Part shown: positions 39,704-56,635 of the stretch, piece after piece
How positions within the stretch are numbered: the first letter of the stretch is position 1
Layout: every line of letters begins with the position of its first letter
Assembly: GCF_000526515.1 (NCBI RefSeq)
Contig: NZ_JAGF01000001.1
Span: forward strand, 434,001 to 498,000
Origin: Cellulomonas sp. KRMCY2
GTDB taxonomy: Bacteria; Actinomycetota; Actinomycetes; Actinomycetales; Cellulomonadaceae
Direction of reading: 5' to 3'
DNA length: 64,000 bases
Position numbers and translations under genes: made by a program
The notes under the pieces: generated by a model
The model's database searches: none
What the model saw: only the letters and a program-made list of their open reading frames with translations
What the model was told of the DNA's origin: nothing

Positions 39704-40132
39704 TCACCCCGCGATGTAGGCGGTCAGGTGGTCGCGCTCGTCCTGCACCTCGGCGATCCGGTTCTTGATCACGTCACCGATGCTCACGATCCCGGCGAGC
39801 CGTCCGTCCACGAGGACGGGGAGGTGCCGGATCCGGCGTTCGGTCATCACCGCCATGAGCTCGTCGAGGCTGTCCTGCGGGCCGCAGGTGTGCACCTCGG
39901 CGGTCATGATCGCCGACACCGGGCCGTCGAGGATGACGGCGCCGTCCGCGTGCAGCCGCCGGACCACGTCCCGCTCACTGACGATGCCGTCGACCTGGTC
40001 CCCGTCGCCGGAGACCACGAGCGCACCGATCCGGTGCTCGGCCAGCAGCCCGAGCAGCTCGTGCACGCTCCGGTCCGGGGCGATGGTGACGACCGAACCG
40101 CCCTTGCGCCTCAGCACCTCGGTGACCCGCAT
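39704..40132 (-). CDS. CBS-domain-pair protein
   Basis: A 142-residue soluble protein made of two CBS domains. The first has VTIAPDRSVHELLGLLAEHR, then GALVVSGDGDQVDGIVSERD; the second has TCGPQDSLDELMAVMTERRI, then RHLPVLVDGRLAGIVSIGDV. Such proteins bind adenine nucleotides or S-adenosylmethionine as energy sensors (family knowledge). The ATG at 40132 is preferred, with a GGGGGTG site before it; a GTG at 40159 would add nine residues. It lies 82 bases upstream of the LuxR-type gene on the same strand. No partner enzyme domain is attached. Confidence 0.9.
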   Translation of the reverse strand: MRVTEVLRRKGGSVVTIAPDRSVHELLGLLAEHRIGALVVSGDGDQVDGIVSERDVVRRLHADGAVILDGPVSAIMTAEVHTCGPQDSLDELMAVMTERRIRHLPVLVDGRLAGIVSIGDVIKNRIAEVQDERDHLTAYIAG

Positions 40133-40390
40133 GTCCACGCACCCCCATCGCACTCGCACGCCACGACCCGCGCCGTCGCGGTCATCCTGTGACGGTACGA
40201 CATGGCCGGGAGCGGGGATAGGCCTGAGGTGACCAGGTCACCGACGGTGAGCCCGAGCCCGTGGTCGGCCGGGGCCGCGTGCAAGCCGCGGTCGCCCGCC
40301 GACATGAACCTGGTACAGGCCTGTGCCGGCCGGTCACCGACGAGGTGATGCTGGGGCGCAGGTGCCGGATCTCCTCACCAGGGGTGTGCC
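40133..40390. other. Divergent intergenic region, nothing recognised
   Basis: Must contain the promoters of the CBS gene (-) and the lipoprotein gene (+). I could not assign convincing -35/-10 boxes, repeats or a riboswitch. Confidence 0.35.
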
Positions 40391-41436: not shown

Positions 41437-42186
41437 TCAAGCGCCGGCCGCGCGCTCGTCCTCGGTCGCCCGCCGCACCACGATCCGCGTCCACGCACCG
41501 ACGTAGACGCGGTCGTCCTCCGCCAGCTCGCGCCGCTGACCGGGGACGAGCGCAACCGTCGGCAGCGGATCGCTCGCGGGGCCGACGTAGGTACCGTTGG
41601 ACGACTGCAGGTCCTCGACGAACCACCGCGTCCCGTCCGTCGTCAGCTGCGCCTGGCGGCGGCTGATCGCCGAATCCGTCCCGCAGTCGATCTCCGGGTG
41701 GATGTTGCGACTGCGCGAGACGCGCCCGACGAGCAGGGACCGCACGGTGAGCGGGACGGTCGTCGGCAGGCCCGGTGAGGGGCACGGCTGATCGGCCTGG
41801 TCCTGGACCGCGTACCAGTCAGGGTCGACCCAGACCTCGGCGACCCACTCGAGCGGGACGGCCGGCGCGATCGGACCGGGGCCCGCGCCCGCGTCCGGTG
41901 CGGGCGCGCCAGGCGTCGCGGACGACGACGGCGCAGAGCTGCCGCGCGGCATCGCGCCGGTCGTGAAGTCGTAGCCGCACGCCTCGCAGAAGAGCGCGCC
42001 GGAGACGTTGCCCGCCTGGCAGTTCGGGCACGCCACGCCCGCAGCCGCCGGGGTGGGCAGGAGCGAGGGCAGGGTGGCCGACGCGGGCGCCGGAGTCGCC
42101 GCTCCGGCGTCCGCGATCGGCGCGCCGCACGTGTCGCAGTAGTCGGTCGAGACGCTCGGGTGCCCCTGCGGGCAGGTCGCGCTCAC
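41437..42186 (-). CDS. Zinc-ribbon FHA-domain protein
   Basis: A 249-residue protein with two small zinc-ribbon-like cysteine pairs near the N-terminus (CPQGH...CDTC and CPNC...CEAC), a Pro/Ala/Ser-rich linker, and a C-terminal FHA domain (about 150-240). FHA landmarks are LLVGRVSRSRN, SAISRRQAQL and LQSSNGTYVG; the usual His after Ser-Arg-x is Gln here. FHA domains bind phosphothreonine, so a PknG substrate or phospho-peptide reader is plausible. The GTG at 42186 overlaps the VWA stop (GTGA). It is the last gene of the PknG/TelA operon. It lacks the N-terminal double-threonine motif of GarA/OdhI as far as I can see. Confidence 0.88.
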   Translation of the reverse strand: MSATCPQGHPSVSTDYCDTCGAPIADAGAATPAPASATLPSLLPTPAAAGVACPNCQAGNVSGALFCEACGYDFTTGAMPRGSSAPSSSATPGAPAPDAGAGPGPIAPAVPLEWVAEVWVDPDWYAVQDQADQPCPSPGLPTTVPLTVRSLLVGRVSRSRNIHPEIDCGTDSAISRRQAQLTTDGTRWFVEDLQSSNGTYVGPASDPLPTVALVPGQRRELAEDDRVYVGAWTRIVVRRATEDERAAGA

Positions 42187-43463
42187 TTGCGCACCCGCGT
42201 GGTCTTCGTCGAGGCGGTGTCGAGCGCCATCTCGTCGAGCTTGTCGACCTGCGCCTTGAGGCGGACCTTCCCGGTCGCGGGCTCGTCGATGTCGACGACC
42301 CGGCGCAGCTTCGACGTCGCCTCGGCGTTGCCGGTCTCCGCCGCGAGCTGGGCCGCGCGACCCAGCTTCGCGGTCGCGGTCCGGTCGTCGCCGGCGGCGC
42401 GCGCCGCCAGGCCCTCCTGGATGACCTGCGCGAGCTCGGCCTGCCCCGTGTAGTGCGCGACCTCGGGGTTGATCTGCGCTGTCAGCTCGTTGTCGTCCGA
42501 CCACAGCGCCTTGACCAGCCCCTGGGCCTGGACCTGGTCACCGACCACCAGCTGCACGCGCGCGGCGAGCTGTTCCTGGCCGACGGCACGTGCACCGGGC
42601 AGGCGGACCGCGACGTGGAAGTCACGCGACTCGTCACCCCAGCTGCCGGTCGGGAAGCCGCCCGTGAGCGGGTTGACCTCCCGGCGGCGGGGTGTGAGGT
42701 CCTCGACGGTCGGCGAGACCTGGCGCACGAAGAGCACCTGCGCACCCTGCGGCGCCCACACGCGCAGGTCCGCGGATGCGACACCACGGCTCATGGCCGC
42801 GCGCATGAGGGAGGCGAACTCGGCGGCCATCTGGTCCGGCCGCGGGATGAGGTCGACGGTACCCATGAGGGCCGACGCGATGCGCCGCAGCTCGCGGACC
42901 TCCCAGTCGACGCCGACGCCGCGGCAGTCGCACTGGAAGACGCCGATCGCGGACGCGAGCCGCACGTCGAGGTCCTGCGGCGACTCGTGCTGGTTCTTGC
43001 CGTCGGTCAGCAGGATGGCGTGGCGCTGCGTCACGCCCGGGACCGACGTCGCGACGCGCGCCGCGAGCTCGAGCCACGTGCCCATCGCCGTGCCGCCTTC
43101 GGGCCGGAGGCTGGCGATCGCGCGCCGTGCCTCCTCGCGCGTCTGGGCCGACATGCGCGCCATCGCGCCCTCGCGCGTGTCGATCGGGTAGACGAGGTAC
43201 GCCGCGTGGCTGCCGGCGATGACGGCGAACCACGTGCCCTCGACCACCTGGTCGAGGGCGGCGTTCGCGGCCTCCTGCGCCGCCCGAACCCCCTCGTACC
43301 CCATCGAGGCGGACGTGTCGATGATGACCAGCTCGGCGGCGCCGGCGCCGGTCTGCCCGGCCTGGCCCGAGCCCGTGCACTCGACTGTGACGATCGCATG
43401 CACGTCCGTGCTGCCGTCCGCCAGGTACTCGTTCTGGTACACCGCCGCAGTGAAGCTCGTCAT
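42183..43463 (-). CDS. VWA (von Willebrand A) domain protein
   Basis: A 426-residue cytoplasmic protein. The VWA domain (about 35-220) keeps a complete metal-binding MIDAS: DTSASMGYE, the threonine in GGTAMGTW and the aspartate in LLTDGKN. A beta-rich middle domain follows (about 230-340) and a helical C-terminal part (about 350-426) ends in a basic tail. The ATG at 43463 overlaps the PP2C stop (ATGA). VWA, PP2C and kinase genes together recall the TerY-P triads of tellurite/stress modules. No signal peptide or membrane helix is present, so it acts inside the cell. Confidence 0.9.
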   Translation of the reverse strand: MTSFTAAVYQNEYLADGSTDVHAIVTVECTGSGQAGQTGAGAAELVIIDTSASMGYEGVRAAQEAANAALDQVVEGTWFAVIAGSHAAYLVYPIDTREGAMARMSAQTREEARRAIASLRPEGGTAMGTWLELAARVATSVPGVTQRHAILLTDGKNQHESPQDLDVRLASAIGVFQCDCRGVGVDWEVRELRRIASALMGTVDLIPRPDQMAAEFASLMRAAMSRGVASADLRVWAPQGAQVLFVRQVSPTVEDLTPRRREVNPLTGGFPTGSWGDESRDFHVAVRLPGARAVGQEQLAARVQLVVGDQVQAQGLVKALWSDDNELTAQINPEVAHYTGQAELAQVIQEGLAARAAGDDRTATAKLGRAAQLAAETGNAEATSKLRRVVDIDEPATGKVRLKAQVDKLDEMALDTASTKTTRVRK

Positions 43464-44587
43464 GCCGGGCCTCCTTCGTGCTTCCATGCGCCGACCCTGG
43501 CCAGCGCGACCGTGATGTTGTCCTTGCCGCCCTGCTCGTTGGCCCACCGGACCAGCTCCTCGGCCATCGGGAGCGGGTCACCGTCGGGGGTGGCGGCGGC
43601 CCGCACGACGACCTGGGCGGTCGCGGCCGCCTCCGAGGCGTAGTTCCACAGCCCGTCCGAGCACAGCAGGAGCCAGCCCGTCCCGTCGAGCCGGTGGTGC
43701 GTGATGGTCGGCACCTGGTCCTCGGCGTCGATGCCGAGCCACCGGGTGATCGCGTGCGCGTGCGGCCCCGTCTCCGCCTCGGTACGCGGAAGGCCCTCGG
43801 CGACCTGCTGGGCCGCGTACGAGTCGTCGACCGTGAGCGCCTTCGGGTCACCGGCGTCCGGCAGCCAGTAGGCCCGGCTGTCCCCGACGTTCCCGACGGC
43901 GACCTGGTCCCCGTCGAGGACGGCCGCGACGAACGTGCACGACGGCGGGCTGTCACCGTGCTCGACGCGCGTCACCTCCTCGACCGCCGCAGCGGCCGCG
44001 GCGCCCGCGGCGACCAGGCGGGCGCCGGCGAGCGCAGTCAACGCGGACCCGGACGCCAGGCCGGCACCGCGCTCACGCACGAGCACGTCGCGCGCGGCTC
44101 GGGCAGCTGCGAGCGATGCGACGTCCGAGCTCTCGGAGCTCGACACGCCGTCGCAGATGACGAGAACCGCCCACCGGCCGGGCCCCGGGTCGGCGGCGGT
44201 CGCCGCGGCGTCCTCGTTGCGGTGGTGGCGCCGGCCGCGGTCGCTCACTGCCGCGACCCACGGCTGGGGCTGCTCGACCATGTGGTCGCGGGGCAGCGGC
44301 GCCTTGGTCCCGCACTGGGTGCAGTAGCCATCGGCGTCGACCTCGCCGCCGCAGTCGACACAGGCGCCGCGCGCCGGTGCCGGCACCACGGCGCCACCCG
44401 CACGGACGGGCCGGGTCGGCGCAGACAACGGCGGGGCCTGCGCGGCGTCCGGCGAGGGCGCGGCGGCGAGGGGTAGCGGCGAGCCGCACTCCTCGCAGAA
44501 GCGCGCGCCGGCCGGTGCGGGGGTCCCGCAGGAGTCGCACGTGGCGGGCGCGACGCCGGCCACCGTGGTTCGGGAGGTGCCGGTCAC
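43460..44587 (-). CDS. PP2C-family protein phosphatase with N-terminal zinc ribbons
   Basis: A 375-residue protein. Two zinc-ribbon-like cysteine groups lie at about residues 17-34 (CDSC...CEEC) and 60-85 (CVDC...CTQC), then the PP2C domain from about 105. Metal and catalytic motifs are RHHRNEDA, ICDGVSSSE, NVGDSRAYWL, LLCSDGLWNY and GGKDNITVALA. The GTG at 44587 overlaps the pknG stop (GTGA). It should remove phosphates from serine/threonine residues, presumably reversing PknG action. No membrane anchor is seen, unlike PstP. Confidence 0.92.
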   Translation of the reverse strand: MTGTSRTTVAGVAPATCDSCGTPAPAGARFCEECGSPLPLAAAPSPDAAQAPPLSAPTRPVRAGGAVVPAPARGACVDCGGEVDADGYCTQCGTKAPLPRDHMVEQPQPWVAAVSDRGRRHHRNEDAAATAADPGPGRWAVLVICDGVSSSESSDVASLAAARAARDVLVRERGAGLASGSALTALAGARLVAAGAAAAAAVEEVTRVEHGDSPPSCTFVAAVLDGDQVAVGNVGDSRAYWLPDAGDPKALTVDDSYAAQQVAEGLPRTEAETGPHAHAITRWLGIDAEDQVPTITHHRLDGTGWLLLCSDGLWNYASEAAATAQVVVRAAATPDGDPLPMAEELVRWANEQGGKDNITVALARVGAWKHEGGPA

Positions 44588-46842
44588 CGGAACGTCCACC
44601 GCCGTACGTCGTTCGCGGCGTCGACCAGCGCGACGCGCTCGGCAGGCGTCGCGGCGGCCTCGGCCAGCTCGCGGAAGGTGCGCTCGAGGCCGTCTCGGAG
44701 CGTCGGCTCGGCTGCCGGCCACTCCCCGATCCGGACCGCAGGCTGTGGCCCGTGCGCGCGCACGTGCGCCAGGGCCGCAGAGAGTGCGGCCGCGGTGAGG
44801 CGCGTGCGCTCGTCCGGGTCGACGCCGACGTCGTGGATGGACGTCATGGCCTCGGCGAGAGCCGGCAGGCCGGTGTCGGACGTGACGAGGAGCTCGGCAC
44901 GCTGCCGGCGCGCCTCGGTGTACGCGCGGGACGTGGCGGGCACGAGGTCGAGCGCCACGACGGCATCGGGCACAGACCCGCGCGCGGCGCGGATGCGGGC
45001 CATCGCGAACGCGGCCGCTGGGACGTAGGCGGCGTCGGTGCGCGCGCACGTCCCGTAGAGCGCCTCGGCGATGTCCGGCTCGGCACTCGTCTCGCACGCC
45101 AGCGCCAGGGCCAGCTTGGGCGCGAGCTCGCCGGGAACCTGCCCGTACACCGCGTTGAACGCGGACTGGGCGCCGTGGCCGTCGGACGCGTCGAGCGCGA
45201 CGAGGCCCTGCAGCCACACCGCGCGCCACTCCCACGGGTCGGCGGCCAGCAGCTCGTCGGCTGCCTCTGCAACCAGATCCGGCCGCCCGGCCCGCAGCGC
45301 GGCCCGCCCCGTCGCGAGGAGCACCTCGGCGGACCGCTCGGGCGCCCGGTCCAGCTGGGCGAGGCGGGCGTGCGGGTCCTCGACGTCGACGGTCGCGAGC
45401 CAGCCGGCCTGCGGGTCGCCGGTGTCCACGCGCAGCTCGGGCAGGTCCTCCCAGCCTCGGACGGCGGTTGCGGAGCCCGGCGCGGCGAACAGGAGGGACG
45501 GCGCGGCGTCCCGGGCGGCGTCCTGGCCGGCCGGGCCGCTGAGCCGGCCGGCCGCCACAACCTCGCGCAGCACACCGTGCAGCTGGACACGCAGCTCGGC
45601 CACGGTCGCGAACCGGTCGGCCGGGTCCGTCGCGCACGCCTTCAGGATCAACCGGTAGAACGAGTCGTACCGCTCGAACAGCGGCGTCTCATCGACGGGC
45701 GGCAGGCTCGCGACGTACGTCGACTGGTACCCGCGGAACTCCATCGCGAGCACGAGCAGGGTGCGACCGAGCGTGTAGACGTCCGACGCGATCGAGACGC
45801 CCTGCTCGGCGACCTCGGGCGCCTGGTAGCCGACGGTGCCATAGATCGCCGAGTCCGTGTCGTCGAGCCGTCGCACGCCGCCGAGGTCGATGAGCTTGAC
45901 GTCGTCGCCGATCTGGATGAGGTTGTCCGGCTTGAAGTCGCAGTACACGAGGCCGAGGTCATGCAGGTACTCGAACGCGGGCAGGATCTCCAGCACGTAG
46001 GCGATGGCCTGGTCGAGCGGGAACGGGTCGTAGGCGCCGGCGGCGCGCATGCGCTCCTTGAGCAGCCCCTTGAGCGAGTGGCCGCCCACGTACTCCATGA
46101 CGGTGTAGCCGGCTCCCTCGTGCGTGACGAAGTTGTAGATCTCCACGATGCGCGGGTGCTCGACCTGCGCCAGGAACTGCCGCTCGGCGATGGCCGCGGC
46201 GAGCGCGTCGGCGTCACCCGTGTTGAGCAGCCCCTTGAGGACGACCCAGCGGTCGGAGACGTTCCGGTCACGCGCGAGGTAGATCCAGCCGAGGCCACCG
46301 TGTGCGAGCGCGCCGGCCACCTCGTACTGCCCGCCGACGACGTCGCCCGGCTGCAGCTTCGGCGTGAACGAGTACGGGCTGCGGCACTGGGGGCAGAAAC
46401 CCTCGGTGCGCCCAGGACGCCCCTCGACCGACCGCCCGACGGCGGCACCGCACGAGGGGCAGAACCGCTTCTCCTCGGCCACCTCCGGGTTGGTCATCAT
46501 CGCGGTCGACGCATCGATCGCTGGCGCGGGCGCGATTGTCGTGAGGCCGGCGCCGAGGCGCGCGGCGCGCAGCCGCTTCGACGAGCCGCCGACCCGGCGC
46601 GTGACGCCCGTACCGCGGCCCGTCCGGGCCGAGCCCATCGCGGTCGCGGCCAGCCGGCTCGACGTGCGGGTCGACGTTGCGCCGTCCGCACCCGCAGGCA
46701 GGGGGGCGCGGCGGGGCGAGGTCGGGGCCGAGGCCGTGCCGGGCACCGAGCCCGCGGCGGGGGCGGCGTCGGGCGGCGACCCGCAGACGTCGCAGTACCC
46801 GTCGACGATCGTGCCGGTGCAGCCGGGCTGGGTGCAGGTCAT
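44584..46842 (-). CDS. pknG: Serine/threonine protein kinase PknG
   Basis: A 752-residue soluble kinase with the layout of mycobacterial PknG (about 750). An extra zinc ribbon lies at Cys3/Cys8/Cys17/Cys20. A rubredoxin-like domain follows with Cys128/Cys131 and Cys150/Cys153. The kinase domain spans about 163-430: Lys203 in VVLKG, catalytic Asp302 in YCDFKPDN and Asp319 in LIDLGG. A C-terminal TPR-like helical region (about 480-750) completes it. The ATG at 46842 overlaps the upstream stop (ATGA). In mycobacteria and corynebacteria PknG controls 2-oxoglutarate dehydrogenase through FHA proteins in response to amino acids. Confidence 0.95.
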   Translation of the reverse strand: MTCTQPGCTGTIVDGYCDVCGSPPDAAPAAGSVPGTASAPTSPRRAPLPAGADGATSTRTSSRLAATAMGSARTGRGTGVTRRVGGSSKRLRAARLGAGLTTIAPAPAIDASTAMMTNPEVAEEKRFCPSCGAAVGRSVEGRPGRTEGFCPQCRSPYSFTPKLQPGDVVGGQYEVAGALAHGGLGWIYLARDRNVSDRWVVLKGLLNTGDADALAAAIAERQFLAQVEHPRIVEIYNFVTHEGAGYTVMEYVGGHSLKGLLKERMRAAGAYDPFPLDQAIAYVLEILPAFEYLHDLGLVYCDFKPDNLIQIGDDVKLIDLGGVRRLDDTDSAIYGTVGYQAPEVAEQGVSIASDVYTLGRTLLVLAMEFRGYQSTYVASLPPVDETPLFERYDSFYRLILKACATDPADRFATVAELRVQLHGVLREVVAAGRLSGPAGQDAARDAAPSLLFAAPGSATAVRGWEDLPELRVDTGDPQAGWLATVDVEDPHARLAQLDRAPERSAEVLLATGRAALRAGRPDLVAEAADELLAADPWEWRAVWLQGLVALDASDGHGAQSAFNAVYGQVPGELAPKLALALACETSAEPDIAEALYGTCARTDAAYVPAAAFAMARIRAARGSVPDAVVALDLVPATSRAYTEARRQRAELLVTSDTGLPALAEAMTSIHDVGVDPDERTRLTAAALSAALAHVRAHGPQPAVRIGEWPAAEPTLRDGLERTFRELAEAAATPAERVALVDAANDVRRWTFR

Positions 46843-48038
46843 GAGCTCCGTCCAGGGGTCACGTCGGTCGTACCGGGGGCGGTCGGTGCGCCGTCCGGCG
46901 GGAGGGCGGGCGGCGGGGACTCGAGAAGAAGACGGAACACTGCGACGACCGCGCGGGCGCGCGGCAGGTCGACGGGCGCCGCGGCGAGGACGTCGCCGGC
47001 GAGGGTCGCGAGTGCGGCGACCTCGGGGTAGCGGTCCCGCCCACGGGCGGCGGCCTGCGCTCGGGACGCGTCGAGCAGCCCGCGAAGGTCCGTCAGCTCG
47101 GCAACGGGGGCGCGGTACGCCTGCTCGGCACGGGTCAGCGCGCGCGCGACGGCGTCGAGGCGGGCGAGGTACGCGTCGACGTCGGCCGCGGCGTCGGGCA
47201 CCGGGCCGAGGGCGTCCACCTGCGGGATGCCGAGGACGGGTGCGGGCCGCACGCGTGCGACGCACTCGTCAGCGACGGCCGTGACGGTGCTGGCGCGCTC
47301 GACGAGCTCGGTGCGCCAGGCCTGCGCCCGGGCGAGGTCGCGCTCGTCGTCGCGCCGGGTCGCAGCGGCGACGATGAGATCACGCTCGGCATGGGCGGCG
47401 TCCGTCTCGAGCGGTCCGACGAGCCCGCCGACGTCGGCCCCCCGGCGCGCGCGGGCACTGATGTCCTCGAGCCGCCCGGACAGTCGCTCGAGCCGTCCGG
47501 CAGCGCTCTCCCGGTCAGGCCCGGACGGCACCCCGTCGACCAGGTCCCGGATGCGCTCGACGTCCGCTCGCAGCGCCTCGAGGTGCTCGGCGAGGTCGAC
47601 GGACACGGTCTCGAGCGCGAGGCGGCGCCGCAGCTGGGCCGTGACGGCGTCGGACAGGCGGCACGCCTCGGGCAGGGAGGTGCCCGTGCTCAAGGCCGCC
47701 GCCGCTCCGGCGGCCTCGGCGCGGCCCCAGACGAGCGAGGAGAGCCGTGCCAGCTCGACGGGTCCGACCCGTCCGCCGTCCCAGACACGCGCGAGCTCGT
47801 CGTACCGGGTTGCGACCGACTGCCAGAGCGCCATCGCGAGCGTCACGTCGCCCGTGAGGTCGACATCGGTCGACGAGAGCGCGGCCCGGTCGAGCTCGTC
47901 GAGCTCGGAGCGCCGGGCGTCGCGCCACGCGACGAGCCGGTCGAGGTAGCCCGCCATGGCAGCCGGCTCCACCGGACGCCCCCAGGCGGCCGGGGCCGCC
48001 GGTGCGGTCACGGAGACGGTCGCCATGGCGCGGGTCAC
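46839..48038 (-). CDS. Hypothetical helical protein of the PknG operon
   Basis: A 399-residue soluble protein rich in Ala, Arg, Asp and Leu, predicted by eye to be almost wholly alpha-helical with coiled-coil character (for example AAGRLERLSGRLEDISARAR). No catalytic motif, signal peptide or membrane helix. It starts with a GTG overlapping the glnH stop (GTGA), and its stop overlaps pknG. Its position between GlnH and PknG is not part of the minimal mycobacterial glnX-glnH-pknG set, so it may be a coupling or scaffold protein (inference). Confidence 0.75.
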   Translation of the reverse strand: MTRAMATVSVTAPAAPAAWGRPVEPAAMAGYLDRLVAWRDARRSELDELDRAALSSTDVDLTGDVTLAMALWQSVATRYDELARVWDGGRVGPVELARLSSLVWGRAEAAGAAAALSTGTSLPEACRLSDAVTAQLRRRLALETVSVDLAEHLEALRADVERIRDLVDGVPSGPDRESAAGRLERLSGRLEDISARARRGADVGGLVGPLETDAAHAERDLIVAAATRRDDERDLARAQAWRTELVERASTVTAVADECVARVRPAPVLGIPQVDALGPVPDAAADVDAYLARLDAVARALTRAEQAYRAPVAELTDLRGLLDASRAQAAARGRDRYPEVAALATLAGDVLAAAPVDLPRARAVVAVFRLLLESPPPALPPDGAPTAPGTTDVTPGRSS

Positions 48039-49033
48039 CGGCCGTAGACCGAGGCGGGTGGTGCGGGGGCCGGGCCGAGGGCCGCGGACAGCCAGCGGTC
48101 GTAGGACGCGGCCCAGGTACCGTCGGCCTTCGCCTGGTCGAGCACGGCGTTGACGAACCGGACCAGGTCGACGTCGTCGGCGTTCATGCCCAGCCCGTAC
48201 GGCTCGGCGGTGAACGCCTCGCCGACGACGGTCGCGTACGGGTCCTGGGCGGCCAGGCCCGCGAGCACGGTGTCGTCACCCGTGATCGCGTCGACCTCGC
48301 CCTGCTGGAACCGGACGAGGCAGTCGGTGTGGGTCGCGGCGGGGACGGCCTCGATGTCGGTGAACTCCTCGAGCTTGGTCAGGCTCGTGGACCCGGCGGG
48401 CGCGCACACCCGCCGGCCGCCCAGGTCGGCGAGGGATGTGGCGTCCGAGCCGAGCGGGACGAGCACCTTCTGGCCGGAGCGGTAGTACTCGGCCGAGAAC
48501 GCGATGTCCTGCCACCGCGCGCACGTGATGGTCATGTTGCGGGCCACCAGGTCCACCGTGCCGTCCTGCAGGGACCCGATGCGCTGGGCGGCCGTGATGA
48601 CACGCAGCTCAACCCGGTCCGCGTCGCCGAAGATCGCGGCTGCGACGAGCCGCGCCATGTCGATGTCGAAGCCCTCGAGCTCCCCGGACACCGGGTTGCG
48701 GGCGCCGAGCAGCATCGAGTCGGCCGAGACCCCGACGATGAGCCGACCGCGATCGCGGATCTCCGCCATCGTCGAGCCGGCCGGGAGGGCGTCCGGGCCT
48801 GCCGGCGGACCGTCCGGCGCGTAGGACGCGAGCGGGTCGGCACACTCGACCGGGGCCGCGGGCGCAGCCGGCGCGGCGGCCGACGACGGGCTGGGGGACG
48901 CCGTCGGGAGCGTGGTCTCGGTGTACGCACCCGACGTGCACCCGGTCAGGGTCGCCGCGGCGACGACGGCGAGCACCGTGAGCGTGCGGCGTGCACGGTG
49001 CGCGGGGTGCGAGCGGGACAGGATTGCGGTCAC
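48035..49033 (-). CDS. glnH: Amino-acid-binding lipoprotein GlnH
   Basis: A 332-residue solute-binding lipoprotein. The signal ends at Leu-Thr-Gly-Cys (Cys32). The mature protein shows the family-3 amino-acid-binding pattern: RGRLIVGVSADSMLLGARNP, LEGFDIDMARLVAAAIFG, VDLVARNMTITCARWQDIAF and EPYGLGMNADDVDLVRFVN. The GTG at 49033 overlaps the glnX stop. In mycobacteria GlnH binds aspartate, glutamate or asparagine outside the membrane and signals through GlnX to PknG. No ABC permease is encoded nearby, which supports a sensing rather than transport role. Confidence 0.92.
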   Translation of the reverse strand: MTAILSRSHPAHRARRTLTVLAVVAAATLTGCTSGAYTETTLPTASPSPSSAAAPAAPAAPVECADPLASYAPDGPPAGPDALPAGSTMAEIRDRGRLIVGVSADSMLLGARNPVSGELEGFDIDMARLVAAAIFGDADRVELRVITAAQRIGSLQDGTVDLVARNMTITCARWQDIAFSAEYYRSGQKVLVPLGSDATSLADLGGRRVCAPAGSTSLTKLEEFTDIEAVPAATHTDCLVRFQQGEVDAITGDDTVLAGLAAQDPYATVVGEAFTAEPYGLGMNADDVDLVRFVNAVLDQAKADGTWAASYDRWLSAALGPAPAPPASVYGR

Positions 49034-50328
49034 CGGTACTCCTCGAGCCGTCGGGCGAAGCCGGTCCAGCACAGGACCGCGACCGCGAGACCCGCCAGAG
49101 CGGCGAGCCACAGGCCGAGGACGAGACCGCCGCGGGCGGCGCCGAGCCCGACGGACGTCTGCTCCGACGTGGTCCGTAGCGCGTCGGCGCTGGCGGCGTC
49201 GAACTCGGCGAACGCGGCGTTCGCCGAGCCCTCGGCATCGTTCGTCGCGGCGGCCACGCCGTCCTCCCACGCGCCCCCGTCGTCGAGGTCGCGGATGGCC
49301 TGGTGCTGGGCGGCGTACGGCTCCCACGTACCGTCGAGGTCACGCGGGACGGTGCCCGTCGCCGACGCCTCCTGGAGGGCGACGACGGTCGTGTCCGACG
49401 ACACGACCCACGCATCCTCGAACGTCTGGCCCGAGCCGCGCGAGATGAGGGTGAGGCTCTCGTTGGCCTTGGCGTCGTAGGCCGCCAGGCGCGCTCGGGA
49501 GAGCGCACTCGCCGCGGCGAACGGCTCGCTGCGCACCCGGTCGACGTCGGCGGCCACCGACCAGAGCGCGACCCCGGAGCCGACCAGGAGCACAAGGAGC
49601 ACGAGGGCGGCGCCGGCGAGCGGCAGGTTGACGTACCGGTGCGTGTGCCGCGCGAGCCAGACGGACGCGGCGACGACCCCGGCCAACGCAAGCACGGAGG
49701 CTACGACGACGAGGACCCATGCGCGCTCAGCCGCCGAGAACTCGTCGGCCACCCGGACCTCGTTGGCGTCGATGAGCGCCGCGAGCGCGGGCAGGGCGTC
49801 CGTCCGCAGCGTCGCGCTGGCGTTGCGCAGATACTGCGCGCCGACCGGCAGTGCCTGCCGGTTCGCGGCGCGCGCCTGCTCGATGCCCGCGGCGTAGTCG
49901 AGGATCGACGCATTGAGTGCCGACAGCACGGTCCCGTCGGCGGGCTGCGCCCGGGCCGCCTGCGCCACGAGCCCGGCAGCCGAGGTGAGCGCGTCGTCGT
50001 AGACGGCGCGCCGATCGGCGGGCTCGAGGCCGCCGACGAGGAAGGCGTTGGTCGCGCTCGCGTCGGCGCTGACCAGGCGGGTCTGGAGCTCCTGGAGGCG
50101 TACCAGCTGGGCGGCGTTGGCGTCGGCCCGCGCGAGCGCGGCGTCAGCGGACGCGAACGACCATCCGCCGGCGATTGCCACGAGCACGCCCACGACGACG
50201 AGGGCCGCGGCGCGGAGCCGCATCCGGGTCGGCGTGGGCCGGCCGGTCCGGGCGGCGACCGGGGCGCCGGGCATGGGCACGGCGGCCGCCGCGGCCGGGG
50301 GGTGGCCAGGTGGGACCGTGGTGGTCAC
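49030..50328 (-). CDS. glnX: GlnX-like membrane signal transducer
   Basis: A 432-residue membrane protein with four helices at about residues 39-59, 203-225, 236-258 and 400-421. The two extracytoplasmic loops (about 60-202 and 259-399) are long and helical, as in the four-helix sensor loops of chemoreceptor-like proteins. This matches GlnX, which links external GlnH to cytoplasmic PknG. The start overlaps the AAA ATPase stop and the stop overlaps glnH, both by four bases. The N-terminus carries a Pro/Ala-rich cytoplasmic lead of about 35 residues. Confidence 0.85.
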   Translation of the reverse strand: MTTTVPPGHPPAAAAAVPMPGAPVAARTGRPTPTRMRLRAAALVVVGVLVAIAGGWSFASADAALARADANAAQLVRLQELQTRLVSADASATNAFLVGGLEPADRRAVYDDALTSAAGLVAQAARAQPADGTVLSALNASILDYAAGIEQARAANRQALPVGAQYLRNASATLRTDALPALAALIDANEVRVADEFSAAERAWVLVVVASVLALAGVVAASVWLARHTHRYVNLPLAGAALVLLVLLVGSGVALWSVAADVDRVRSEPFAAASALSRARLAAYDAKANESLTLISRGSGQTFEDAWVVSSDTTVVALQEASATGTVPRDLDGTWEPYAAQHQAIRDLDDGGAWEDGVAAATNDAEGSANAAFAEFDAASADALRTTSEQTSVGLGAARGGLVLGLWLAALAGLAVAVLCWTGFARRLEEYR

Positions 50329-51806
50329 GCGACTCCTCCTTCAGGGGTCGGGTCGTCAGGCGTGTCCGCCGCGGGCGGGACGGGGTCGCGGTCGTCGTGC
50401 CCCGGGCTGTCGGGCGGGGTGTCGGGGCTGGCGTCGTCCGGGCGGTCCTCGAGGTCGTGCGGGAGCAGCAGGCGCAGGTCGTCGGCGCTCGGGGACTCGA
50501 CATCGCGCAGCCGCCACGCGTGGCGGCCGATGGCGCCCTCGAGGACGTTGCGCGCGAAGCGCCCGTTGCCGAAGCCCTGCCCACGCGGCGTCGCGGCCAG
50601 CAGCTCGCGGAACCGCGTGCGGAACTCGGGGGTCGGTGTGAAGTCGGCGGCGTCGGCGAGCCGCTCGAGGATCGTCTCGATCTCGGCGTCCGTGTAGTCG
50701 GCGAACTCGATCGTCGTGCGGAACCGGCTGGCGAGGCCCGGATTGCTGTCGACGAACGTCTCCATCGGGCCCGGGTAGCCGGCGACGATGACCACCAGGT
50801 CGTCCCGGTGGTCCTCCATCTCCTTGACCAGGGTGTCGACCGACTCGCGGCCGTACTGGTCACCTGCGAGGGCGTACGCCTCGTCGATGAAGAGCACGCC
50901 GTCGATGGCACCCGCGACGACCTTCGACGTCTTCACGGCGGTCTCGCCGAGGTACTGGCCGACGAGCTCGGACCGGTCGACCTCGACCAGGTGCCCCTTC
51001 GCGAGCATCCCGAGCGCGGCGTAGATGCCGCAGACCAGGCGGGCGACGGTCGTCTTGCCCGTGCCGGGGTTGCCGGTGAAGACAAGGTGGCGGGAGATCG
51101 CCGGCGTCCGCAGGCCGTGCGCGGCCCGCAGGTTCTCCATCCGCAGGACGGCGGCCTGCTGGTGGACCTCGCGCTTGACGTCGGCGAGCCCGACGAGCGC
51201 GTCGAGCTCGGCGAGGAGCTCGACGACCGACCGGGTGGGCGGCGGGTCCTCCTCGGCGGCCGGGGCCGACGCAGTCCCTTCGGCGACGGCGGCGGCGGCG
51301 ATGGTTCCGCCCGCGCCCGCCGTGCTCCCGGGTGCCGGTCGGCCCGGAGCGCCGGGACCTGCGGCCGGCGGGAGCCGCGACAGGCTGCGACCTGGGACGG
51401 CACCCAGCTGGGCGCCGCACGCGCGGGTCGCGTTCTCCACGACCCGCTCGGTGGGCGTGCCGAGCAGGCATGCGGCCGTGGCCACGCCCAGCAATGCATC
51501 GACATAGGTGTCCGCATGCGGCGAGCCGGCCTGGACGAGGCGGGCCAGGTGGTCGGTCGGGCCGACACGCCAGCGCCGTCCGCGCGCGGCCGCGTCGAAG
51601 AACGCCTGCGACGCCGAACCATCGACCGGCCCGACGAGGGCGGCCCACGCGACGGGCGCACCAGGAGCGGACTCAGCAAGGGTCGCGGCGAACGCGGCCC
51701 CCTCGGCAGCTACCTGGTCGTCGTCGAGCCCGGCGCACCGGCCGACTGCGACCAGCGCCGCCAGGGCCGCGTCCAGCCCCGGCGAGTCCGTGCGGTACCC
51801 GGTCAC
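50325..51806 (-). CDS. AAA+ ATPase of the CbbX/EccA type
   Basis: A 493-residue protein. The N-terminal half (1-180) is helical and Ala-rich; a Pro/Gly linker follows. The AAA+ domain starts near 205 with LVGLADVKREVHQQAAVL, then Walker A GNPGTGKTTVARL, SELVGQYLGETAVKT, Walker B GVLFIDEAYAL, and the sensor/arginine region NPGLASRFRTTIEF. This is the CbbX/SpoVK/EccA group, which remodels other proteins. An acidic Pro/Asp-rich tail ends the chain. The GTG at 51806 overlaps the preceding stop. No ESX secretion genes are nearby, so an ESX role is unlikely. Confidence 0.9.
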   Translation of the reverse strand: MTGYRTDSPGLDAALAALVAVGRCAGLDDDQVAAEGAAFAATLAESAPGAPVAWAALVGPVDGSASQAFFDAAARGRRWRVGPTDHLARLVQAGSPHADTYVDALLGVATAACLLGTPTERVVENATRACGAQLGAVPGRSLSRLPPAAGPGAPGRPAPGSTAGAGGTIAAAAVAEGTASAPAAEEDPPPTRSVVELLAELDALVGLADVKREVHQQAAVLRMENLRAAHGLRTPAISRHLVFTGNPGTGKTTVARLVCGIYAALGMLAKGHLVEVDRSELVGQYLGETAVKTSKVVAGAIDGVLFIDEAYALAGDQYGRESVDTLVKEMEDHRDDLVVIVAGYPGPMETFVDSNPGLASRFRTTIEFADYTDAEIETILERLADAADFTPTPEFRTRFRELLAATPRGQGFGNGRFARNVLEGAIGRHAWRLRDVESPSADDLRLLLPHDLEDRPDDASPDTPPDSPGHDDRDPVPPAADTPDDPTPEGGVA

Positions 51807-52351
51807 CCGAGCGCCCCGGGCGGCTGCAGGCGGCCGTCGACGTCGAGCCGGCCGCCGGTCGAGGCGTGACCGAACTTCTCGGCGAGGAAGCGACCGTGCG
51901 CGATGAGCGCGGCGGCGTCCGACCGGTTCACGGCGTCGAGCACCTGGTCCATCGTGCGCGCCAGGAGGTCGAGCTGGTCGATGAGAACCATGAGGGACGT
52001 CCGGCCGTTGTCCACCGGGCGCACGTTTGCCCATTCGCGCGGCAGGCGCAGGTACCCGCCGACCGCCTCGGGGAGGTAGTCGGTCGCGGTCGCCATGACG
52101 ACGTACGCCTGCTCGCTGCCCGCCCCCAGCCGGTCCAGGCGCGGGATCGCGTCCCGAACGACCCGGGCCACCCGGGCCACGCGGGACGCGACCGGGCCGG
52201 GCACTGCGCCGTCGGCCACGAGCGTCTCAACGCGGTCGAGCGCGGCGAGCAGGTCGGCGGCGGTGGGCACGGGCGGCACGGCCGACACCTCGACCTCGGG
52301 CGATGAGCCCCGGCCGGTCAGGCGGGCGAGCAGGTCACCGAAGGCGCCCAT
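51803..52351 (-). CDS. Hypothetical protein encoded between TelA and the AAA ATPase
   Basis: A 182-residue soluble protein. An N-terminal amphipathic segment MGAFGDLLARLTGRG is followed by a helical domain with IPRLDRLGAGSEQAYVVMAT and YLPEAVGGYLRLPREWANV, then LIDQLDLLARTMDQVLDAV. The family is not named with certainty, but it may accompany TelA, as small helical genes often do (inference). The ATG at 52351 has GGGGTGA six bases before it; a GTG at 52357 is possible. It overlaps the AAA ATPase start by four bases and lies 30 bases after telA. Confidence 0.75.
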   Translation of the reverse strand: MGAFGDLLARLTGRGSSPEVEVSAVPPVPTAADLLAALDRVETLVADGAVPGPVASRVARVARVVRDAIPRLDRLGAGSEQAYVVMATATDYLPEAVGGYLRLPREWANVRPVDNGRTSLMVLIDQLDLLARTMDQVLDAVNRSDAAALIAHGRFLAEKFGHASTGGRLDVDGRLQPPGALG

Positions 52352-52381
52352 GGGCACTCACCCCTGCCCGCGCGAGCGTCG

Positions 52382-53641
52382 TCATCTGGCGGCTCCCGGA
52401 TCGTCGAGGTCGAGGCTGCCGGACGCCGCATGCTCGTCGTGCTGGCGCGCCCGATCCAGGTAGGACTGCGACTTGGTGACCTCGGTCTGGAGCGTCCCGA
52501 TCGTCGTCGCCATCGAGTCCAGCGCCTCCACCTTGAACGTGTCGATGGCGTCCATCGTCGCGTAGATGTTCGCGAACGCGGCCTGGAGCTGGGGCAGCCC
52601 GATGGTGGCTGACGCCGCTTGCTCCTGGATCGCGGCGGAGTTGTCCTTGAGCATCTGCGACGTGCGCTCGATGAGGGTCGACGTCGTCGTGTTCAGCGCG
52701 GTGATCTGGTCGAGGACGAGCTTCTGGTTCGTCAGGGCTTGCGAGACGATGACGGCCGTGCGCAACGCCGACAGGGTCGTCGTCGACGCGCGGTCGACGC
52801 CCTTGATGAGCTCGATGTTGTTGCGGATGAGGATGTCGATCGCGAGGTAGTTCTGGATCGACACCGCGAGCTGGGTGAGCAGGTCCTGGTGCTTCTGGCG
52901 GACGTAGAACAGGACGTCGTCGCGCAGCGCACGGGCCTTGTCGGGGTCCGTCGCCTCGAGGTCGGCGACGGCCGCGGCCAGGCGCGCGTCGAGGCGCTCG
53001 GCGACGTAGACGTACTGGTTGAGCCGACCCATCGCGGCCCAGAGCGCCGTCTTCTCCATGTTCAGCGAGACGTTGTCCTTGCGGAGCTCGTCCTGGCCGT
53101 CGCGGAGCGCGTGCATGATCCCGTTGAGATGCGACTGGGCGGACTGGTACTTGCGGAAGTAGTCGGTGAGCTTGTCGCCGAACGGGAAGAGGCCAAGGAC
53201 CTTGCGGGCTCCGGTCGCGCCGGACGGGTCGAGATCCTCCACCGTCCGGCGCAGTTCGAGGAGCGTGTTCCCGACCTTGGACCCCGACGCCAGGCCGCCC
53301 TCGCGAATCGCCTTGACCGGCGTCTGCAGCAGGCGGTTGGACGACTCGGCCGCCTCCCGGATGTCCCGGTCGCCCATGGTGCGCACGTCCGCGGCCTGCG
53401 CCGCGAACGCGGGCGAGCTGGCGGGCGCAGCGAGCAGCGACGCCAGGTAGGTGTCGACCTTGGCGTCGAGGCCAGGGACCGCGCCGGGGGCGACCGCGGG
53501 CGCCATGGCCGGAGCCGCGGTCGCGGCGACGGCGGTGACAGGTGCCGGCGCGGTGAGGACCAGTGGCTGCTCGACGGGCGTCGGTGGTGCGAGGGGGGCG
53601 ACGGCGTGCGCGCCGGCGCTCGACGGGTCTTCGGTGGTCAT
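52382..53641 (-). CDS. telA: TelA-family (toxic anion resistance) protein
   Basis: A 419-residue protein. A Pro/Ala-rich N-terminal 55 residues precede the helical TelA domain (about 60-400), with AAESSNRLLQTPVKAIREGG, FPFGDKLTDYFRKYQSAQSH, LNGIMHALRDGQDELRKDN, MEKTALWAAMGRLNQYVYV and LAVSIQNYLAIDILIRNNIE. These are strongly TelA-like. The ATG at 53641 follows AGGAAGGGA. It is the first gene of the ten-gene operon. TelA proteins occur with tellurite/Ter and envelope-stress systems; their biochemical role is not known. Confidence 0.92.
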   Translation of the reverse strand: MTTEDPSSAGAHAVAPLAPPTPVEQPLVLTAPAPVTAVAATAAPAMAPAVAPGAVPGLDAKVDTYLASLLAAPASSPAFAAQAADVRTMGDRDIREAAESSNRLLQTPVKAIREGGLASGSKVGNTLLELRRTVEDLDPSGATGARKVLGLFPFGDKLTDYFRKYQSAQSHLNGIMHALRDGQDELRKDNVSLNMEKTALWAAMGRLNQYVYVAERLDARLAAAVADLEATDPDKARALRDDVLFYVRQKHQDLLTQLAVSIQNYLAIDILIRNNIELIKGVDRASTTTLSALRTAVIVSQALTNQKLVLDQITALNTTTSTLIERTSQMLKDNSAAIQEQAASATIGLPQLQAAFANIYATMDAIDTFKVEALDSMATTIGTLQTEVTKSQSYLDRARQHDEHAASGSLDLDDPGAAR

Positions 53642-53804: not shown

Positions 53805-55769
53805 TCACAGGTCGATGTGGGCGCCCATGAGCACGGTGCGCTCGGGCGGCAGGTGGAACACCTCGGTGCGGTCGGCAGCGTTGTGGGCCATCCAGATGAA
53901 CAGCCGGGTACGCCAGGTCCGCAAACTCCACGGGGCGGCATGGATGGTGGTGACCGACAGGAAGTAGTGCGCCGAGTCGAGGTCGAACGGGAGCAGCGGG
54001 TGCTGCCCGAAGGCAAGGGCGAGTCCGCGCGGGACGTCCTGGCTGTCGGTGAAGCCGACCCGGATGGAGACCGCGACGATGCCGACGCCGTCGTGGCCGA
54101 TGTCCTCGACCGTCACCCGGTCGACGTGCCGGACGTGCGGCACGTTCTCGTTGACGATCCGGACCAGGACGACGTGCTCGTGGACGACCTGGTTGAAGTC
54201 GACGTTCGAGCGCAGTGCGAGCGGGGTCGTGGTCGAGTTCGGGTGCGGGTAGATCGCAACGCCGGGGACCCGCGCCACGCGACCGTCCCGGAGGATCGCG
54301 ACGAACAGGTCGAGCGGCCCGCCCAGCTCGCGCTCCTGCTCCCGCAGCACCGCGGCCCCGGCTCTCCAGGTCGTCATCATCGTGACCACGACGACGGCGA
54401 TGACCAGTGGCAGCCACCCGCCGCTCACCACCTTGGTGAGGTTCGCGGCGAGGAAGACCAGCTCGAGGGTGCCGACCACGGCGACGAAGACGACGAGCTT
54501 CCAGACCGCGACCCGCCAGACCGTGTGTGCCAGGAGGAGGAACAGCGCACTGGTCAGGAGCAGCGTGCCGGTGACGGCCAGGCCGTAGGCGGTCGCGAGT
54601 CGTTCGGAGCTCTGGAACGCGGCGACCAGGACGAGCACGCCGGCGAACAGGCTCCAGTTGACGACCGGCACGTAGATCTGACCGCCCTCCTCGCGAGAGG
54701 TGTGCCGCACGGTCAGTCGGGGCAGCATCCCGAGCCGCACCGCCTGGCGGGACACGGAGAAGGCGCCGGAGATCACCGCCTGGGAGGCGATGACGGTCGC
54801 CACGGTCGCCAGGACGACCAGAGGCAGCCGCGCCCACGTGGGCGCGAGGGAGAAGAACGGGCTGGCGGCCGCCTGCGGGTCGACGAGGATGAGCGCGCCC
54901 TGGCCGAGGTAGTTGATGGCCAGAGCGGGGAACACCGCCACCCACCAGGCCGAGCGGATGGCCCGCGCCCCGAAGTGGCCCATGTCCGCGTACAGCGCCT
55001 CGGCGCCGGTGATGGTCAGCACGACGGCGCCCATCGCCAGGAACGCCTGCCACGGGTGGCCGGCGACGAACGCGAGCGCGTAGGTCGGGGACACGGACTG
55101 CAGGATCTCGGGAGCGCGCAGCACATGCGGCAGCCCGAGCGCTGCCAGCGTGACGAACCACACCGTCATCACCGGCCCGAACACCCGCCCGACCGCCTCG
55201 GTCCCCCACCGCTGGACGAGGAACAGGACCGTGAGGATCACCACGGACACGGGCAGCACGAGGCTCTCGAGCCGCGGGTCGACCACACCGATGCCTTCGA
55301 CCGCGGACATCACCGAGATCGCCGGCGTGATGACGCTGTCGCCGTAGAAGAGCGCCGCACCGATCATGCCGAGCAGCAGCACCGCGCCCAGCGCCCGCGG
55401 ACGGCCGGCGAGGCGGTCCCGAAGGAGCGCAACCAACGCGAGGATGCCGCCCTCGCCCTCGTTGTCGGCGCGCATCGCCAGTGCGACGTACTTGAACGAG
55501 ACGACGATCGTGATGGACCAGAGCACCATCGAGATGACGCCGAGGACGTCGTCACGGGTCGGCTCGACGGAGTGCTGCCCGATGCTGAACACGGCCTGCA
55601 TCGCGTAGAGCGGGCTGGTCCCGATGTCGCCGAACACGACACCGAGGGCTCCCAGACCGAGGGTGAGCCCGCCGCGGTGGCCGCCGGCCGAACCGACCAC
55701 CGCCGATGCGCGTCGCGATGTCGAGGGCACGCGCGCAACGTACACCGACCGCGCAGGATCAACCTGCAC
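53805..55769 (-). CDS. kup: KUP-family potassium transporter
   Basis: A 654-residue membrane protein. After a basic lead it has the KUP hallmark LGALGVVFGDIGTSPLYAMQ, then about twelve helices, with GDSVITPAISVMSAVEGI, ALYADMGHFGARAIR and VIASQAVISGAFSVSRQAVR. A C-terminal cytosolic domain of about 150 residues ends VLMGAHIDL. It takes up K+ with protons. The start is uncertain: GTG at 55769 is used, but a GTG at 55730 would remove 13 unconserved residues and leave a small inverted repeat (55753-55767) outside the gene. Confidence 0.93.
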   Translation of the reverse strand: MQVDPARSVYVARVPSTSRRASAVVGSAGGHRGGLTLGLGALGVVFGDIGTSPLYAMQAVFSIGQHSVEPTRDDVLGVISMVLWSITIVVSFKYVALAMRADNEGEGGILALVALLRDRLAGRPRALGAVLLLGMIGAALFYGDSVITPAISVMSAVEGIGVVDPRLESLVLPVSVVILTVLFLVQRWGTEAVGRVFGPVMTVWFVTLAALGLPHVLRAPEILQSVSPTYALAFVAGHPWQAFLAMGAVVLTITGAEALYADMGHFGARAIRSAWWVAVFPALAINYLGQGALILVDPQAAASPFFSLAPTWARLPLVVLATVATVIASQAVISGAFSVSRQAVRLGMLPRLTVRHTSREEGGQIYVPVVNWSLFAGVLVLVAAFQSSERLATAYGLAVTGTLLLTSALFLLLAHTVWRVAVWKLVVFVAVVGTLELVFLAANLTKVVSGGWLPLVIAVVVVTMMTTWRAGAAVLREQERELGGPLDLFVAILRDGRVARVPGVAIYPHPNSTTTPLALRSNVDFNQVVHEHVVLVRIVNENVPHVRHVDRVTVEDIGHDGVGIVAVSIRVGFTDSQDVPRGLALAFGQHPLLPFDLDSAHYFLSVTTIHAAPWSLRTWRTRLFIWMAHNAADRTEVFHLPPERTVLMGAHIDL

Positions 55770-55810
55770 AGCCGCTCCGACGAGCCCGGTGCACCTGACA
55801 GCGGAGAGAC

Positions 55811-56635
55811 TCAGACCCAGGGTGAGTCGATCGAGAACTCGTCCGCGACGGACGTGATCTCGGCCTGGGTCAGGCCTTCGGCGCGACCGCCGGCGACGAT
55901 GTCCATGTACTCGTAGTGCGCCCCCGTCTCGGCGTACTCGATCCGGTCGACGGCCCGGGTCACCGACAGGTCGGAGCGGGACATCACGCCGTGCTTGGAC
56001 CAGATGACGATCTCGAAGTCCCGCAGGCCCTCGACGTTGGCCGCCATCATCCCCTCGGAGCCGGGCACCAGGAACGGCAGCACCCCGACGCCCTGGGACA
56101 GGGCCACGATGCTCTCCGGCTCCCAGCGCAGGATCTTCCTGTTCATCGTGGCGGTGTCCCGGTAGGCGGGGATGTGCGAGAGGTAGGTCAGGTGCGGCGG
56201 CTGGGCGTGCACGACGGCCTGGAAGTCCACCCCGCGGCGGGCCACCTGGTCCTGGTGCACGGCCAGGTGGGAGTTGAACTCCGACGTCAGCTTCTCGAAC
56301 AGGCGCCGCGGGGAGGTGAACAGCGTCGCGGTGAGGCCGTCGTCGTGGATGCGCACGGCGCCGACGTTCGCCAGCGGGTCCTCGTGGATCTGGCGAAGGC
56401 GGCGGCCGGAGCCGGTCACCAGCAGCGATCGGCCGGCCAGCGCCGGGGCCGGGAGCGGCAGGACGAGCTCCGACTGCTCCGGGAACCGGCGGCGCAGCTC
56501 GATGTCCCAGCCGACGTAGACCGAGATGTTGCCGGCACCGGCCTCGCTGGCGTCGATCTCGCTGATCCTGGTCCCGCCGGCGCCCATGGAGGCGAGCAGC
56601 TCGTCAAGCTCGGGGAAGGGCTCATGAAGGGGCAT
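55811..56635 (-). CDS. rhaD: Rhamnulose-1-phosphate aldolase
   Basis: A 274-residue class II aldolase that splits L-rhamnulose 1-phosphate into dihydroxyacetone phosphate and L-lactaldehyde. Features are AGAGNISVYVGWD, LLVTGSGRRLRQIHEDP, SEFNSHLAVHQ, the metal-ligand pattern VVHAQPPHLTYLSHI and VIWSKHGVMSRS. Length equals that of known RhaD. It is the last gene of the rhamnose operon, 29 bases after the kinase gene. Confidence 0.93.
   Translation of the reverse strand: MPLHEPFPELDELLASMGAGGTRISEIDASEAGAGNISVYVGWDIELRRRFPEQSELVLPLPAPALAGRSLLVTGSGRRLRQIHEDPLANVGAVRIHDDGLTATLFTSPRRLFEKLTSEFNSHLAVHQDQVARRGVDFQAVVHAQPPHLTYLSHIPAYRDTATMNRKILRWEPESIVALSQGVGVLPFLVPGSEGMMAANVEGLRDFEIVIWSKHGVMSRSDLSVTRAVDRIEYAETGAHYEYMDIVAGGRAEGLTQAEITSVADEFSIDSPWV

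Follow-up and report, generated by a model that had tools for sequence, protein, structure and literature searches.

A two-layer operon combines the glnX-glnH-pknG sensing genes with PP2C, VWA, FHA and TelA-ATPase genes in Cellulomonas sp. KRMCY2 and its relatives

The Ser/Thr kinase PknG has been much studied, and the literature covered treats it as part of the three-gene operon glnX-glnH-pknG of mycobacteria and corynebacteria (PMC6069109, PMC9769921, PMC8546545). Signaling from GlnH through GlnX to PknG is supported by the work of others in these three-gene relatives, with contacts among the proteins being proposed. Two other described systems resemble parts of the locus considered here. 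TerY-P triads, as outlined in PMC11090510, combine a VWA protein, a PP2C phosphatase and a kinase with a zinc ribbon, and actinobacterial conflict systems contain a kinase-PP2C-vWA set (PMC7159879); in the archaeon Sulfolobus, the zinc ribbon FHA protein ArnA binds the VWA protein ArnB (PMC6509490). Here, we describe a ten-gene block in a 64,000-nucleotide stretch of the genome of Cellulomonas sp. KRMCY2 (contig NZ_JAGF01000001.1, positions 434,001 to 498,000; hereafter, the window), which brings together genes resembling those of all three. Among the matches listed from titles and abstracts of the open literature, none joins PknG with VWA, PP2C and TelA or with ArnA-ArnB, and none reports a fixed combination of this sort with PknG or the short operon as a reduced form; the STRING pknG neighborhood in Fig. 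2B of PMC6069109 may show some of the genes.

The block occupies positions 53641 to 41437 of the minus strand and reads telA, hyp1, aaa, glnX, glnH, hyp2, pknG, pp2c, vwa and fha. An earlier note on this DNA had described ten same-strand genes with eight exact 4-nucleotide overlaps, and both coordinates and start codons bear this out: the start codon lies at such an overlap in all eight junctions from hyp1-aaa through vwa-fha. Profile scans likewise recovered the families that it had named, along with its two unknowns. The telA-hyp1 junction is a gap of 24 or 30 nucleotides, depending on the hyp1 start chosen. A promoter and terminator scan of the operon region found nothing, a result of little weight because the genome is GC-rich. 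As in the mycobacterial and corynebacterial operon, glnX, glnH and pknG stand together, the glnX-glnH order and overlaps are the same, and PknG carries rubredoxin, kinase and TPR domains. The window differs by adding hyp2, PP2C, VWA, FHA and telA-hyp1-aaa, by a zinc ribbon at the N terminus of PknG, and by the residues at the T162 and W232 equivalents of GlnH.

Gene order was determined with profiles of the ten families at 141 loci, all picked by PknG or GlnX. These comprised the window itself; 80 named loci, the best 80 among 581 sequences confirmed as relatives of the window PknG (the nearest named one, from Actinotalea solisilvae, is 88% identical); 20 loci from the window's own family, in which 21 other genomes encode PknG and all but G438 were used; and 40 loci picked by hand to cover different families of the class. 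In the window's own family, PknG was present in 22 of 61 genomes. The full ten genes occurred in identical order at 83 of the 141 loci, a proportion that is not a population frequency because of the way the loci were chosen; the order is thus not unique to this genome, whereas uniqueness is what the earlier note had said would count against its proposal. The 83 loci included 63 of the 80 named, 16 of the 20 own-family and 3 of the 40 hand-spread loci, plus the window. The 63 named loci were spread over Kribbellaceae (15), Nocardioidaceae (15), Intrasporangiaceae (13), Kineosporiaceae (5), Propionibacteriaceae (4), Cellulomonadaceae (2), Microbacteriaceae (2) and Streptomycetaceae (1), with six assigned to no family. 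Several of the ten genes were missing from L193 and L201, both full-length named loci. The 4-nucleotide overlap between aaa and glnX, which joins the two halves of the unit, was found in 88 of 89 cases, followed by glnX-glnH (119/130), hyp2-pknG (98/113), vwa-fha (75/106) and pknG-pp2c (65/119). Among open reading frames (ORFs) flanking the ten-gene loci within the fetched stretches, the commonest family was found at 18 of 83, and the borders of the operon therefore look sharp. The locus is a real, widely conserved single unit and is not local to this genome.

The operon has two layers, a core of glnX-glnH-hyp2-pknG-pp2c-vwa-fha and an outer layer of telA-hyp1-aaa. The core was also found without the outer layer, as a seven-gene unit at 13 of the 141 loci (including L144 and L180, at contig ends) and in a permuted order with glnX-glnH last at 7 (L136 lacked pp2c and fha at the cut-off, and L137 lacked glnH). 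A three-gene form was found at 12 loci, a four-gene form at 4, and a partial or other arrangement at 22, several of them at contig ends. In a sample of 394 genomes of the class, GlnX was detected in 158, VWA_3_C in 101 and TelA in 75. Distances were measured against GlnX among the matches listed (the GlnX positions of G508, G759 and G782, for example, fell outside these), leaving out the nine weakest VWA_3_C rows (all E > 1e-5) and three TelA rows. On this basis, 73 of 111 VWA_3_C matches had a listed GlnX no more than 15 kb away, 4 had one far off on the same contig and 34 were on contigs without a listed GlnX; for 78 TelA matches, the corresponding numbers were 8, 10 and 60. TelA is mostly away from GlnX, and the core is therefore the common element.

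Phylogenetic trees of PknG were built from 65, 63 and 55 of the 140 PknG rows, with ten-gene rows thinned by hand. In the 55-row tree, the ten-gene loci formed a single clade (100/100) that also enclosed the four-gene loci, and the 65-row tree agreed. To the 55-row tree we added L297, a PknG locus from outside the class, in which glnX-glnH lie on the strand opposite to hyp2-pknG-pp2c-vwa-fha; its PknG has the zinc ribbon and its VWA protein the tail motif described below. Rooted on L297, the tree had the PknG-PP2C-VWA-FHA core at its root and in every main clade, and the 12 three-gene rows fell inside a 27-row clade with 15 core-bearing rows (100/99). Ten of the 12 were sister to core-bearing second copies of the same family, f7 (100/99); the label mycobacterial-type for f7 comes from a 1268-bit match between the PknG of L110 and that of M. 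tuberculosis (2pzi). Because the three-gene operons are nested among core-bearing clades, they appear to be a reduced form, and the "merger" of a three-gene route with another module suggested by the earlier note seems, with one outgroup row at the root, to run in the wrong direction. The simplest reading is that the core partners were lost in the mycobacterial-type line and a few others, such that the well-studied three-gene operon looks reduced.

The sensor genes of the core are glnX (49030 to 50328; 432 residues), a membrane sensor matching NF058618 at 278 bits (cut-off, 250), and glnH (48035 to 49033; 332 residues), an SBP_bac_3 solute-binding protein whose best solved relatives are the M. 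tuberculosis GlnH structures 6h1u and 6h2t (3.2e-70). R147, R169 and D250 of GlnH, of which the latter two bind the amino-acid backbone, were kept in 83/83 ten-gene loci, and S164 was either T or S. The positions described in PMC6069109 as Asp side-chain contacts, T162 and W232, were occupied differently: T162 by N in 58 of the 83 (including the window), A in 16 and T in 9, and W232 by H in 59 (including the window), D in 17, other residues in 7 and W in none. Three-gene loci (n = 12) kept T162 in 10 cases and W232 in 11. An amino acid is the probable ligand, but it need not be Asp or Glu. Downstream of glnH, hyp2 (46839 to 48038; 399 residues) encodes a long helical protein with no match above curated cut-offs in family-model scans; its predicted model is all-helical (predicted local distance difference test [pLDDT] score of 91) and matched no PDB fold at E 0.001.

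PknG itself (44584 to 46842; 752 residues) consists of an N-terminal zinc ribbon (residues 3 to 20; 46783 to 46836), a Ser/Thr-rich linker, a rubredoxin domain (PknG_rubred), the kinase domain and a TPR domain (PknG_TPR). K203, D302 and D319 were present in 140/140 aligned PknG sequences. In the first set of loci, the zinc ribbon was found in 103/103 typed loci with VWA or hyp2 and in 0/16 without them, as well as in 16 of 21 partial or other loci (two of the five lacking it are cut at the contig start). On the tree, 4/4 independent changes of ribbon and core agree, too few for significance (P = 0.125). We considered the ribbon as an obligate dock for the VWA protein and rejected this on a follow-up set of eight f94 genomes with GlnX and without a VWA_3_C match, one of which was without PknG: all seven PknG loci keep the ribbon, including L263, with PP2C alone, and L267, with a weak VWA match. 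The idea of a docking code read from the number of TQ motifs at the N terminus of PknG was dropped, as TQ occurs within the zinc ribbon in many rows, and an ST[KR] motif (0.99 per ten-gene row versus 0.12 in shuffles) was not used because the rows are related. A GarA-like gene with a VETTM motif lies elsewhere in the genome (G000:C1:3520691; 163.6 bits, below the cut-off of 200), so the classical PknG-GarA route may coexist. Three PknG genes of family f95 (L126, L128 and L132) lack the zinc ribbon; the stretch fetched around each has no VWA or PP2C gene and carries glnX-glnH on the opposite strand, and the three share a long branch. In the Nocardioides loci L169, L173, L176, L181, L182 and L207, the PknG profile matched a further ORF approximately 4 to 6 kb downstream of fha.

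The last three genes of the core encode a PP2C phosphatase with an N-terminal double zinc ribbon (43460 to 44587; 375 residues; PF13672, PF00481 and PF12773), a VWA protein with a VWA_3_C domain (42183 to 43463; 426 residues) and an FHA protein with a double zinc ribbon and an ArnA-like make-up (41437 to 42186; 249 residues; PF00498 and PF12773). In our alignments (A1, A2, A5 and A6 are thinned subsets), the FHA residues were kept, and the metal ion-dependent adhesion site (MIDAS) residues D49, S51, S53, T125 and D154 of the VWA protein were invariant in 37 sequences. The VWA protein matches 4FX5, which PMC6509490 names as Catenulispora acidiphila, over residues 4 to 425, tail included (2.6e-112). 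From this end-to-end sequence match, it may share the three-part fold, with a beta-sandwich and a C-terminal helix bundle, that PMC6509490 describes for both 4FX5 and the ArnB paralogue vWA2. The C-terminal tail of the VWA protein (residues 410 to 426; 42186 to 42236) is a candidate site of phosphorylation and FHA docking: among 113 sequences, S418 and T421 were present in all, T419 in 107 and T416 in 106.

For the FHA family profile, ArnA was the best solved relative (8s05_C, 2.3e-12; 5a8i, 2.8e-12), with matches across both zinc ribbon and FHA domain. The VWA family profile reached 8s05_A at 6.4e-9 over the VWA domain only, and the adjacent vwa and fha genes thus match the two different chains of one entry. 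Although the entry title reads "Conserved protein," we treated 8s05_A as ArnB, since the phosphopeptides given in PMC6509490 recur in its C-terminal stretch. In that account, the ArnB phosphorylation sites sit in the C terminus, and ArnA binding fades on nutrient limitation. The VWA and FHA proteins of the operon resemble the partners of the archaeal nutrient-dependent pair: a protein with an N-terminal zinc ribbon and an FHA domain is encoded beside a VWA protein, of putative three-part fold, with a Ser/Thr-bearing C terminus, and a link to a kinase and a nutrient theme are shared. The two differ in that the sequences are distant, the bacterial tail motif is another one, and here the kinase, phosphatase and sensor belong to the same operon.

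The outer layer begins with telA (52382 to 53641; 419 residues), a toxic anion resistance family gene (PF05816, 4.5e-91) that a genome search found in one copy in the 4.50-Mb genome. The hyp1 product (51803 to 52351, or from an alternative GTG start at 52357; 182 residues) matched no Pfam or NCBIfam family, and its predicted model (pLDDT, 85) matched no PDB fold at E 0.001. It belongs to a helical TelA-partner family, as hhalign found it homologous (99.7%) to the products of telA neighbors at PknG-free loci. The AAA+ ATPase (50325 to 51806; 493 residues; AAA and AAA_lid_6) keeps its Walker A and Walker B motifs across 89 sequences and matches TIGR02881, TIGR03922 and TIGR02880, all below cut-off, which places it nearest SpoVK/EccA/CbbX and not MoxR. 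In 5 of 12 PknG-free TelA regions, an ORF with a weak VWA-profile match lay between telA and a hyp1-like gene, and at L282 and L283, the gene next after telA was strongly homologous to aaa of the operon (630 and 624 bits), with neither hyp1 nor glnX close by. Such groupings away from glnX or PknG suggest that TelA, hyp1 and AAA make up a loose module of their own. The single Ter/tellurite complex envisaged in the earlier note is hard to reconcile with this, as TelA and its partner occur elsewhere in other genomes; telA-hyp1-aaa is, we infer, a later, separate layer tied to one PknG clade.

A TelA gene beside a small partner gene recalls the XpaC-TelA pair of Firmicutes (PMC12791056). The identification of hyp1 as XpaC gained no support, since hyp1 gave neither a PF10112 match nor a profile match, the comparison profile consisting of only two sequences; XpaC was sought in 149 genomes and found in 3. 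Ties between TelA and kinases have been described earlier, through the tellurite sensitivity of Clostridioides difficile kinase mutants (PMC9674922) and, in PMC12791056, through higher nisin and tellurite sensitivity on disruption of Listeria lmo1967. The five PknG-free regions with a VWA-like ORF (L285, L287, L288, L289 and L293) constitute a second setting in which TelA stands beside a solute-binding domain and a VWA domain; Pfam found SBP_bac_11 and VWA in both that were scanned (L285 and L287). TelA was also recorded on plasmids (17 records).

We tentatively favor, with somewhat less than even confidence, a reading of the two-layer operon as a VWA-FHA phosphoswitch controlled by GlnH-GlnX-PknG and PP2C, with TelA-hyp1-AAA gated by it. 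An external amino acid bound to GlnH would act through GlnX on PknG; PknG would phosphorylate, and PP2C dephosphorylate, the conserved Ser/Thr tail of the VWA protein; and the zinc ribbon FHA protein may bind the phosphorylated tail, by analogy with ArnA and the ArnB C terminus in Sulfolobus. Hyp2 might, as a guess, be a scaffold at GlnX or PknG. TelA, its partner and the ATPase would form a set, probably at the cell envelope, whose activity the switch gates, all ten genes presumably being expressed as one translationally coupled operon. A GarA/OdhI arm may persist in parallel through the GarA-like gene, and the three-gene mycobacterial-type operons would be reduced forms of the core. This reading draws on the fixed order and overlaps, the sharp borders, and the presence of the core outside the class and at the root; on the conserved kinase, MIDAS and FHA residues and the invariant tail Ser/Thr; on the end-to-end match to 4FX5, ArnA as best solved FHA relative and the matches to both 8s05 chains; and on the conserved GlnH residues and the GarA-like gene. 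It is plausible that amino-acid sensing controls more than the GarA route. In a wider form, which we consider speculative and on the whole somewhat unlikely, the original PknG pathway of the phylum would have been a nutrient-controlled FHA-VWA phosphoswitch of the ArnA-ArnB type, shared in principle with archaea; the GarA-only operon of mycobacteria and corynebacteria would be a remnant after loss of the switch, which in one large clade would have become coupled to a TelA-ATPase machine at the envelope.

A number of observations weigh against the phosphoswitch. Phosphorylation, binding and the single transcript are all predicted from sequence, the role given to TelA-hyp1-AAA comes from linkage alone, and the root of the PknG tree depends on a single outgroup row (L297). 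The GlnH side-chain pocket differs from that of Asp/Glu-specific GlnH, the R147/T162/W232 combination being absent, and the pp2c-vwa overlap of 4 nucleotides occurs in only 16 of 113 cases. Four f94 loci (L262, L264, L265 and L268) have PP2C followed by FHA with no VWA gene at the cut-off, so VWA is dispensable in some species, and a fifth (L266) has PknG-GlnX-GlnH alone, without PP2C, VWA and FHA. The lead of ArnA over GarA (8.8e-11) in the FHA profile search is small, and two unrelated VWA chains outscore 8s05_A in the VWA search. In Sulfolobus, according to PMC6509490, motility was unaffected when single pairs of the phosphorylated threonines in ArnB were replaced by alanine, and no ArnB peptide fell with loss of ArnA binding.

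Other readings explain parts of the same evidence. The operon could be a stress or conflict module like TerY-P, in which a kinase-PP2C-VWA phospho-triad run by PknG senses metal or damage together with TelA and amino-acid input is secondary. Kinase, PP2C and VWA do share one operon here, the kinase has a zinc ribbon, TelA stands beside a VWA protein in other loci too, and PMC9674922 reports that tellurite proteins are targets of C. difficile kinases, with tellurite sensitivity in the kinase mutants. However, the ribbon of PknG is N-terminal and its C terminus is a TPR domain, where a TerY-P kinase would have a C-terminal zinc ribbon or OB fold; the kinase is a PknG with rubredoxin and TPR; and FHA, GlnX and GlnH are added, the latter two being in the core of all ten-, seven-, three- and four-gene arrangements. 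PADLOC returned kinase-domain matches, weak AAA matches and one weak PP2C match, and none for VWA, FHA or TelA. No TerY-family match was obtained for the operon VWA protein (no TerY profile was used), which has VWA_3_C and an ArnB-type match instead. With most TelA genes also lying away from GlnX, we regard this module as unlikely.

The chaperone complex raised in the earlier note, in which AAA and VWA proteins remodel a client, TelA anchors them and phosphorylation gates the machine, accords with a shared operon, a VWA protein with a full MIDAS, and the MoxR-VWA pairs reported in PMC9976466 and PMC13036017. We consider it quite improbable, given that VWA is kept without an AAA gene in the seven-gene and permuted loci, that L282 and L283 pair AAA with telA and no VWA, and that the AAA protein is nearest SpoVK/EccA/CbbX (below cut-offs); the VWA-FHA pair is better fitted by ArnB-ArnA. 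Linkage without a shared circuit, with PknG controlling only GarA and the other genes carried along for expression, would suit the GarA-like gene and the PknG-GarA/OdhI route described as working without extra genes in three-gene species (PMC6069109, PMC9769921). It is very doubtful, since different families share the gene order and overlaps and the core extends beyond the class, whereas neighboring genes are not kept.

If the three-gene form is reduced, then the missing hyp2, PP2C, VWA and FHA proteins are testable ancestral substrates and regulators of PknG, and Nocardioides, Kribbella, Cellulomonas and their relatives gain a defined amino-acid signaling system. The archaeal ArnA-ArnB switch would then also have a concrete counterpart in bacteria, and TelA, a protein of unsettled function, a possible means of control.

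Around the operon, a K+ transporter gene (53805 to 55769) lies upstream of telA in the minus-strand stretch from 53805 to 59404, followed by genes for a class II aldolase, an FGGY kinase and a xylose/rhamnose isomerase-like protein, likely a sugar cluster. On the downstream side, a MalT-like LuxR regulator (TPR_MalT and GerE; 36868 to 39621, minus strand) is encoded near a CBS-domain protein (39704 to 40159).

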